From the NCBI GenBank assembly GCA_016744375.1, contig JADGEM010000006.1:1-64000 (forward strand): a DNA stretch of 64,000 bases, in the 5' to 3' direction. The position numbers and the translations under genes are program-made. Below the pieces are notes generated by a model that saw only the letters and a program-made list of their open reading frames with translations, searched no databases and was not told the DNA's origin. The DNA comes from Gammaproteobacteria bacterium. Its GTDB lineage: Bacteria > Pseudomonadota > Gammaproteobacteria > GRL18. Shown here in pieces: positions 13,354-40,191 of the stretch (positions within the stretch are counted from its first letter, which is position 1; every line of letters starts with the position of its first letter).

Positions 13354-13716
13354 TACTACCTTAACGGTAATTGAGTTTGATTTAAAATCAAGAGAAAAAG
13401 CAGAGGTAGCGCTCGAATAAGCACGCATAAAACGACTGCAAGGTGAATCGTATGACTACAGGCCTTATAAATTCTCTGCTTTGCTTTTGGACAACACCAG
13501 AGAGGACAATTGAGGTAGAAGAGTGTACCTGAGACTGGTTCGTCTAACTGGGGTGTTTGAAAACAGGGACGTTTTCAACAAGCGCTACAAGGAAGTACTC
13601 GCAGCGTCCCCAGTTAGGCGAACCAGTCTTGGGTGCAATCGGCAGGCTCAACCTTTGCCCGAACGCCACTTTTCTTTTAATTTTAAGCCATACTCAAATC
13701 GTTATTTTAGCAATTT
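13354..13716. repeat. Repeat element copy B (one-hairpin version)
   Basis: About 363 bases matching copy C at both ends but lacking the 181 bases that form C's left hairpin (33638-33818). The remaining hairpin has arms at 13531-13553 and 13608-13630 with a 54-base loop. Two bases differ from C in the right arm, and both changes give G:U pairs instead of breaking the stem. The left terminus is well preserved; the right terminus is degraded. It lies between the ECF sigma gene and recQ. A reading frame starting at 13523 is a by-product of the repeat. Confidence 0.85.
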
Positions 13717-33540: not shown

Positions 33541-34083
33541 TACTACCTTAGCGGTAATTGAGTTTGATTTAAAATCAAAAGACAAAGCAGAGGTAGCGTT
33601 CGAATAAGTGCTTATAAAACGACTGCAAGGTAAATCGGTACAACCAACTGGGGACGCTGCAAGTACGTCCATGTAATGCTTGCTGTCGCCATCCATGGCT
33701 CCAAACACCCCATTTGGTTGCACCGATTCACCTCACATTCTCTTAAGGCATTTATTCTCACTTGGAGCGTCCAAAGTCAAAAGCTAAGAAAAAGAGAATC
33801 ATTGTTGTCCGCGAGTTGTATGACTACAGACCTTATAAGTTCTCTGCTTTGCTTTTGGACAACACCAGAGAGGGCAATTGAGGTAGAAGAGTGTACCTGA
33901 GACTGGTTCGTCTAACTGGGGTGTTTGAAAACAGGGACGTTTTCAACAAGCGCTACAGGGAAGTACTCGCAGCGTCCCCAGTTAGACGAACCAGTCTCGG
34001 GTGCAATCGGCAGGCTCAACCTTTGCCCGAACGCCACTTTTCTTTTGATTTTAAGCCACACTTAAATTACCGCTATGGTAGTG
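33541..34083. repeat. Repeat element copy C (two-hairpin, most complete version)
   Basis: 543 bases with imperfect terminal inverted repeats of about 60 bases (left begins tactaccttagcggtaatt, right ends ttaccgctatggtagtg). Inside are two hairpin modules in opposite orientation. The left module has 26-base arms at 33628-33653 and 33708-33733, with three mismatches. The right module has perfect 23-base arms at 33899-33921 and 33976-33998. Both loops are 54 bases and homologous when one is reversed. No transposase frame is present. The 33891-34190 reading frame is a shadow of the repeat. Confidence 0.88.
33899..33998 (+). other. Right hairpin module of copy C (perfect 23-bp stem)
   Basis: Arms 33899-33921 and 33976-33998 are exact reverse complements (gagactggttcg... 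and ...cgaaccagtctc). The 54-base loop itself contains ttgaaaac...gttttcaa. The same module recurs at 13531-13630 and, in part, at the window start. Strong potential for a structured RNA or DNA cruciform. Confidence 0.8.
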
Positions 34084-39035: not shown

Positions 39036-40049
39036 ATGACAGACAACACTGAAGAAATTCAAGACTACTCCAGGTTAAATCCTGATGCCGTTATTAATGC
39101 AGTTGAAAGCAAAGGTTTTTTTTCAGATGCCCGAGTGCTTGCTTTAAACAGCTATGAAAACAGAGTTTATCAAATTGGCATTGAAGATGAAGATCCCATT
39201 ATTGCCAAATTTTATCGCCCGGGACGCTGGACTGAGGAGCAAATACTGGAAGAACATACTTTTTCACAAGAACTGCATGAACTGGAAATACCCGCAATTC
39301 CCCCAATTTACCTGGAAGATTCATCAACGACTGAGCGACAAAGTTTGTTTGTTTATGAAGGCTATCGCTTTGCACTCTATAAGCGCAGAGGTGGACGCGC
39401 ACCAGAACTGACCGATCTGGATCAACTATACTGGCTGGGCAAATTAATGGGACGCATTCACGCCATTGGTCAAACAAAAAAGTTCCAATACCGCCCAACT
39501 CTTTCAATAAAGTCTTTTATTACCCATCCCTATGACTATATTTTAGAGCACAAATTTATGCCATCCCTTTTTATAGAGTCTTATAAAGCCATTGTTGCTG
39601 ATATTCTGCAGCATGTTGAGTCCAACTATCAAAAATTCCCGCCTAATTTAATCCGTCTGCATGGTGATTGCCATCCTGGCAATATTTTATGGACAGATAA
39701 CGGGCCGCATTTTGTGGATTTTGATGACAGCCGAAATGGCCCGGCTATTCAGGACCTCTGGATGTTGCTGTCTGGTGAGCGTAGTGATCAGGAAAAGCAA
39801 TTACGTGAGATAATAGACGGCTATGAAGAGTTTTGTGATTTTGACAGAACAGAACTCAATCTTATCGAATCATTAAGAAGCATGCGTATCATTCATTATG
39901 CTGGCTGGTTAGCAAAACGGTGGACTGATCCGGCATTTCCCAGAGCATTCCCCTGGTTTAATACGGAACAATTCTGGGGAGAGCATATATTGCAGTTAAA
40001 AGAGCAACTCGCTATTCTTCAGGAGCCGCCTTTGCAAATCTATCCTTAA
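39036..40049 (+). CDS. srkA: Stress response kinase SrkA (YihE-like)
   Basis: Aminoglycoside-phosphotransferase-fold Ser/Thr kinase that protects E. coli against stress-induced death. 337 residues with nucleotide-binding N-lobe (LNSYENRVYQIGIEDEDPII) and catalytic loop LHGDCHPGNILW followed by FVDFDDSRNGPAIQDLW, which supplies the metal-binding Asp. Length agrees with YihE (328). Third gene of the rnd unit; its stop codon lies inside the left arm of an inverted repeat. Confidence 0.95.
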   Translation: MTDNTEEIQDYSRLNPDAVINAVESKGFFSDARVLALNSYENRVYQIGIEDEDPIIAKFYRPGRWTEEQILEEHTFSQELHELEIPAIPPIYLEDSSTTERQSLFVYEGYRFALYKRRGGRAPELTDLDQLYWLGKLMGRIHAIGQTKKFQYRPTLSIKSFITHPYDYILEHKFMPSLFIESYKAIVADILQHVESNYQKFPPNLIRLHGDCHPGNILWTDNGPHFVDFDDSRNGPAIQDLWMLLSGERSDQEKQLREIIDGYEEFCDFDRTELNLIESLRSMRIIHYAGWLAKRWTDPAFPRAFPWFNTEQFWGEHILQLKEQLAILQEPPLQIYP

Positions 40050-40183
40050 AAGAAAGTCAGTCGTTTATAGTCTGTTATCATAAAGATAAAACCAAAAGCA
40101 TTTAGAAAGCAGAAGCTAATATATACTCCCTGCGTCGTTTCTTATGATATTGACGAATAACAACAAACGACTGACTTTCTTTT
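40048..40183. repeat. 19-base perfect inverted repeat flanking a 98-base spacer
   Basis: Left arm aaaagaaagtcagtcgttt at 40048-40066 and its exact reverse complement at 40165-40183 enclose 98 bases. The inner sequence also has smaller matching pieces (tatcata/tatgata). It fills the gap between the convergent srkA and DUF3301 genes. It may act as a bidirectional terminator or be a small mobile repeat. Confidence 0.7.
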
Positions 40184-40191
40184 AGCTGATC

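Follow-up and report, generated by a model that had tools for sequence, protein, structure and literature searches.

A dispersed MITE-like repeat of Gammaproteobacteria with twin GGA-loop hairpin modules as a probable carrier of predicted CsrA-binding RNA

The window analyzed here, a 64,000-nucleotide stretch of a gammaproteobacterial contig, contains an element designated copy C, which lies between soxA on one side and a gene for a SulP-type permease on the other (Pfam). Copy C holds two modules in opposite orientation (Table 1). The original prediction had assigned each module a pair of arms enclosing a 54-base loop, and both the arms and the loop length were confirmed in the sequence. It had also placed one small hairpin at the center of each loop; this hairpin is present, but each module has a second hairpin that had been missed. 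The reported paired base change was recovered (right module GAAAAC/GTTTTC, left module GCC/GGC). What had escaped the earlier reader is that each of the four small hairpins of copy C carries, on one strand, a loop of the form A-N-GGA-N. The ends of copy C are imperfect inverted repeats (TACTACCWTAGCGGYAATT), as had been described, and a further inner 28-base repeat (82%) was found. A separate 25-bp inverted repeat, 92% complementary and with arms 88 bases apart, is located at 40047-40184 of the window. Just two frames of at least 80 aa overlap copy C (81 aa and 99 aa) and neither is a transposase, in agreement with the claim that the element lacks one. A coding role for the modules was rejected, given that spacing within the module shifts by single bases and that the frames of copy C are short.

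Table 1 Features of the element and its copies in the window (positions are those of the window)
Feature	Position	Strand	Basis or detail
Copy A, right-end portion truncated at the contig start	1..147		Repeat comparison
Copy B, about 180 internal bases missing	13354..13699		Repeat comparison
Copy B, one whole module	13529-13632	+	Covariance model
Copy C, full double-module element	33541..34083		Repeat comparison; 543 bp
Left terminal inverted repeat TACTACCTTAGCGGTAATT	33541..33560	+	Inverted-repeat and end-pattern searches
Left module	33624..33737	-	Covariance model 106.9 bits; Rfam TwoAYGGAY 36.1 bits
Left module, arms of outer stem	33624-33653 and 33708-33737		30 pairs; read on the minus strand 25 Watson-Crick, 4 G-U, 1 other
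GGA hairpin 2, left module, UAC-AUGGAC-GUA	33664..33675	-	Loop 33667-33672
GGA hairpin 1, left module, GCC-AUGGAU-GGC	33688..33699	-	Loop 33691-33696
Linker between modules, partly self-complementary	33738..33891		Sequence and folding
Right module	33892..34005	+	Covariance model 103.8 bits
Right module, arms of outer stem	33892-33921 and 33976-34005
GGA hairpin 1, right module	33925..33946	+	Loop AGGGAC 33933-33938
GGA hairpin 2, right module, UAC-AGGGAA-GUA	33954..33965	+	Loop 33957-33962
Right terminal inverted repeat	34064..34083	-	Inverted-repeat and end-pattern searches

Copies A and B lie in the same window, copy B between two genes identified by eye, one recQ-like and the other sigma-factor-like. 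The genome as a whole contains four copies that are 96-100% identical over at least 540 bases, copy C included, one more at 79%, and many partial matches. The covariance model gave 23 matches in this genome, two of which are the opposite strand of a better match, leaving 21 distinct places; five full inverted pairs are found among these 21 module places. In one full copy (C122:8330-8854; G000, in L013) the hairpin types are swapped, with the GAAAAC type on the left and the GCC type on the right, as expected of inversion or conversion between inverted modules.

In Gammaproteobacteria CsrA/RsmA exerts global regulation, and the antagonists best known for it are a small number of sRNAs dedicated to this task. 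The CsrA/RsmE motif is an ANGGAN loop, with the SELEX consensus RUACARGGAUGU, and a pair of sites separated by 10-63 nt is within reach of one CsrA dimer (PMC7652899). Alignment of 35 non-redundant modules yielded a consensus composed of an outer stem of about 30 bp and two small hairpins, with a constant rim of GGGG/CCCC with AGCG and, on one strand, A-N-GGA-N loops closed by C-G. Of 147 non-overlapping model matches, 135 had two and only two loops of the form C-A(N)GGA(N)-G, 11 had one and 1 had none, a result conditional on the seeding of model R1 with sequences chosen for ANGGAN loops. These 147 modules were obtained from 165 model matches by removal of 18 antisense or overlapping duplicates and cut or odd-length matches. 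The loop starts are 22-25 nt apart, and the first loop is one base short in 4 of the 135. Variation in the loops falls mainly on the N positions of the published motif, and hairpin 2 in some copies reads UACAGGGAUGUA, which can be compared with the SELEX consensus. The module loops have the properties of a CsrA-type site: ANGGAN in a hairpin, the GGA unpaired, and two sites at bridging distance. Units bearing the module also occur in tandem arrays, at L255 536-1616 (253 bp x 4.4) and L254 688-2052 (227 bp x 6.0), the former lying 3' of a partial integron-integrase frame (222 bits; family cut-off 265).

Folding of copy C gave branched structures far above shuffles for both strands: the plus strand as RNA scored z -12.4 and the minus strand as DNA z -13.1, neither value being reached by any of 100 shuffles. 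Covariation over many copies, which the original prediction had named as the check on its fold, proved large. In the 35 non-redundant modules, both sides have changed in 27 of 34 pairs, and the covariation score was 0.665 compared with 0.19 for shuffled and at most 0.11 for slid alignments. For 70 matches from other families, which were aligned by the covariance model and whose alignment is hence biased towards it, the score was 1.04 (shuffled alignments 0.20, slid ones no more than 0.18); double changes occur at all 23 outer pairs, and 97.7% of cells are paired. The number of pairs with double changes in this set, 30, is not above shuffles (29.4; 265 of 500 reach 30), because the columns are so variable. 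The stem sequence is nearly free to change, and the pairing and the GGA loops are retained.

The paired changes had been taken as the sign of selection on a fold. The pairs do covary, but paired changes alone are no proof of such selection, since DNA template switching can create and repair stems, altering both arms together (PMC8794818). The same process lies at the center of a rival explanation, a mobile palindrome acting at the DNA level, whose stem and hairpins would serve transposition or replication of single-stranded DNA, whose arms would be kept by template switching and whose likeness to CsrA sites would be incidental. Stems in several other families are near-perfect over about 30 bp and seem to have been rewritten as units, as this explanation would have it. 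In G260, 20 of 28 module pairs have cores at least 85% alike, and their stems are 38% alike (median); of the altered stem positions in those pairs, 188 differ on both arms and 5 on a single arm. By contrast with that expectation, changes confined to one arm (134) occur in the window's own genome as often as double changes (111). Loci L094, L132 and L133 (G112), like those of G260, combine near-identical cores with unrelated stems of about 30 bp that are still near-perfectly paired. Because stems differ between near-identical cores, copying of the arms from the insertion site was also considered; it was rejected for the window's genus, where the sequence outside the stem is common to the copies and the sole single-arm candidate (G004) resembles a remnant of the element.

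A strand test was applied to the question of RNA or DNA, in which outer-stem mispairs that differ between the strands were counted without gaps, G-T and A-C being treated alike. In 25 dereplicated modules found by BLAST in the window's genus and family, the GGA strand showed 44 G-U against 7 A-C (p 1e-7); individually, 17 of these modules lean to G-U and 0 to A-C. Before dereplication, all 53 genus and family modules gave 111 against 24. The 11 dereplicated modules found by the model in the window's genus gave 20 against 6, with p 0.009 by cells and 0.18 by modules, and 71 dereplicated modules from other families gave 51 against 37, which is not significant (p 0.17). The mispair test keeps apart 13 modules of G007 (window's genus) that are included in the wider, "class" sets used for the stem, orientation and U-tract counts. 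These data support the conclusion that in the window's genus and family the strand that behaves like single-stranded RNA is the GGA strand; elsewhere the bias is not significant. Symmetric DNA predicts no such bias unless only one strand folds, and the DNA-level palindrome leaves unexplained the class-wide ANGGAN in both loops with a C-G closing pair. We regard that explanation as unlikely, if still a serious contender. The excess of G-U over A-C found for the window's genus and family, together with the constant GGA loops, is stronger evidence for selection on the fold than the paired changes are, and the module family makes a clear case that covarying stems need a strand test before they are read as RNA under selection.

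Of the 274 class genomes sampled, 48 contained modules detected by the covariance model. A draw from the phylum gave a match in 32 of 398 genomes, all 32 from the same class, but every genome listed in that draw belongs to this class as well. With 14 candidates scored per genome in the class run and 10 in the phylum run, presence and counts are lower bounds. Six chosen carrier genomes, with 150 candidates scored in each, contained 139, 97, 57, 44, 32 and 18 matches, numbers that may include both strands of one copy (as for 2 of 23 in the window's own genome). A pattern scan returned 11 stretches from uncultured Gammaproteobacteria MAGs, one labelled Thiohalomonas sp. Neither plasmids nor phages matched a 121-base query on the left module, and a 66-base piece of one class module gave a single match, 25 bases long, to a Halomonas plasmid record of 1.83 Mb, with 0 in phages. 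The gap between the sox and permease genes is without the G000 element in the relatives G005, G004, G014, G002, G003 and G013, with a likely element remnant in G004, and the site orthologous to that of a second copy is empty in G005. In G008 (L224) the same gap holds a different single module, so this gap has been used at least twice.

The seven copies with both ends gave no target-site duplication; the best z, 2.8 among 1521 choices of offset and length, is within noise. In the end-pattern search with up to 3 mismatches, 39 matches were obtained compared with 18 for a reversed control pattern, so the weak matches are mostly chance. A link to a known insertion sequence, the alternative against which the original prediction had asked to be checked, was not found by ends in this genome. 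The notion that the copies are decayed remains of a known insertion sequence, or integron attC sites, draws on the terminal inverted repeats, on the resemblance of GTCTAAC/GTTAGAC in the right module to attC R boxes, and on the one tandem array that adjoins the partial integrase frame. It is contradicted by several observations: the left module has no R boxes, the stems lack constant boxes and pair ungapped over about 30 bp, no gene is enclosed by matching ends in the window's own fragmented assembly (by eye), and the array is positioned 3' of the integrase frame. This notion is largely refuted and we hold it to be very improbable.

Placement relative to genes was assessed with mechanical ORF calls. 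Using frames of at least 300 nt and dereplicated copies, modules favor convergent over divergent gaps (genus and family, 13 convergent and 0 divergent; wider set, 22 and 8), and frames of 420 and 540 nt showed the same trend. Such placement, and the Rfam type of TwoAYGGAY ('Cis-reg'), would suit an element that lies in the 3' region of mRNAs close by and acts in cis on stability or 3'-end formation, with or without CsrA. Orientation to the neighboring genes shows no preference, with ++ vs -- counts of 4 vs 4 in the genus and family and 17 vs 25 in the wider set (p 0.28), and hence gives no support for a sense 3'UTR role; the same lack of preference favors the DNA-level palindrome. A crude count of both sets without dereplication, -- 41 vs ++ 21, had pointed to sense-strand placement, which was rejected when the difference was not significant after a symmetric rule and dereplication. 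A U-tract follows the stem in 7 of 93 modules of the wider set compared with 6 of 93 at the control position, and the absence of enrichment led us to reject an intrinsic terminator. The T-rich stretch found just after the stem in the genus and family (18 of 53, control 1 of 53) is shared repeat sequence. On these grounds the cis-acting role appears improbable.

The explanation that we favor, and think probable with some reserve, is that the element is a non-autonomous, dispersed, MITE-like repeat whose payload is a predicted CsrA-binding RNA; that the element is transcribed, that its RNA binds and titrates CsrA, and that a transposase moves it in trans are inferred. The GGA strand of a module would form a long stem presenting two A-N-GGA-N hairpins about 24 nt apart, both of which one CsrA dimer could hold, and with the modules inverted in the double element a transcript of either strand would offer one dimer site. 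The RNA could arise from a promoter of the element itself or by read-through from neighboring genes, copies being found preferentially between convergent genes. Module RNAs might then hold CsrA off its mRNAs, or tether CsrA to 3' ends. Speaking against the CsrA reading, most SELEX hairpins had no more than four contiguous pairs (PMC7652899), in contrast to the long perfect outer stems of the modules, although short GGA hairpins are frequent in the modules as well.

The window's own genome has one canonical csrA gene, beside an aspartokinase-like gene (neighbor named by eye), and its product is closely similar to solved CsrA chains. Across the class, csrA was found in 235 of 274 genomes, and it does not track the element: 44 of 48 carriers have it, as do 191 of 226 non-carriers (by subtraction). 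Co-occurrence was accordingly rejected as proof of a CsrA link, as it does not discriminate carriers from non-carriers. One genome, G218, has 8 module matches and no csrA match and is listed as 98% complete. In Pseudomonas putida KT2440, RNAs bound by RsmA, RsmE and RsmI include intergenic regions beside copies of ISPpu8 and a 'long palindromic region downstream PP_3547' (PMC7937890, Table 3), ISPpu8 being an IS4-family element (PMC3056050). Apart from this remark on ISPpu8, none of the papers listed by our searches of the open-access literature was seen to describe, as such, an element that is dispersed or mobile and bears CsrA sites. The Rsm-bound palindromic regions may be the same kind of element as the window module and, if homologous, the modules offer a possible reason for their recovery in the Rsm pull-down.

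More broadly, and tentatively, we consider it possible though rather doubtful that class-wide selfish or domesticated repeats with portable CsrA/RsmA docking sites act as a distributed decoy that sets the level of free regulator, their stems rewritten by template switching and their GGA loops held by selection. With modules facing opposite ways, such repeats would show a site in any read-through transcript. If dispersed repeats carry dimer sites at tens to about a hundred loci, CsrA titration would depend on repeat load.

Among known systems, the modules come closest to the Rfam family TwoAYGGAY (RF01731), in which a long outer stem likewise closes two hairpins with GGA hexaloops. The original reading of a mobile structured unit is close to the evidence as to dispersal, empty sites, conserved fold and lack of coding, and needs correction where it knew of no named family with this layout. 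The left module aligns over all 168 positions of the TwoAYGGAY model at a score below the cut-off of 43 bits; the window's genome has 3 matches, the best at 37.0 and 0 above cut-off. No Rfam family, the known CsrA-sponge families included, reaches its gathering score in the window. Among loci of relatives, five modules in 4 of 20 pass the cut-off (L124, L123, L062 with two, and L052), compared with 0 in 20 loci from the wider class sample, and six array loci gave no TwoAYGGAY match (Rfam, E up to 0.1). The modules share the poorly conserved external stem typical of TwoAYGGAY; AYGGAY loops are present in the left module and replaced in the right by AGGGAC and AGGGAA. TwoAYGGAY RNAs were already proposed as CsrA-binding (PMC4333381), and we found no published test of this binding in the open-access literature. 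If our explanation is true, TwoAYGGAY, so far an unassigned motif, would acquire both a function and a way of spreading.

The GGA-loop hairpins of CsrB/CsrC and RsmX/Y/Z are, like those of the modules, fit to hold CsrA dimers. Each of these sRNAs is encoded at a single locus, contains several sites and has a regulated promoter of its own, whereas the modules have one dimer site each, are spread over tens to about a hundred loci and have no known promoter; the tandem arrays L255 and L254 resemble CsrB in their multi-site layout. Integron attC sites are defined by RYYYAAC/GTTRRRY boxes and extrahelical bases, and identity with them was rejected because R boxes occur in the right-module stem and are absent from the left, the stems being otherwise without constant boxes (by eye). 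MITEs are similar to the element in being short and without a gene, in their terminal inverted repeats and many copies, and in their variable presence at orthologous sites; the element differs in its conserved RNA-like payload, and no target duplication or partner transposase was found. REP elements of the GTAG/CGTC families are also dispersed intergenic palindromes, often paired, but they are 20-40 bp long with tagged ends (PMC3733652), whereas the modules exceed 100 bp and combine constant loops with free stems. TwoAYGGAY, for its part, is presented in the accessible text of PMC2864571 and PMC4333381 as an RNA motif and not as the payload of a dispersed repeat; what is new here is that a family of dispersed elements has this motif for its payload, frequently as two inverted modules, which places predicted sites on either strand.
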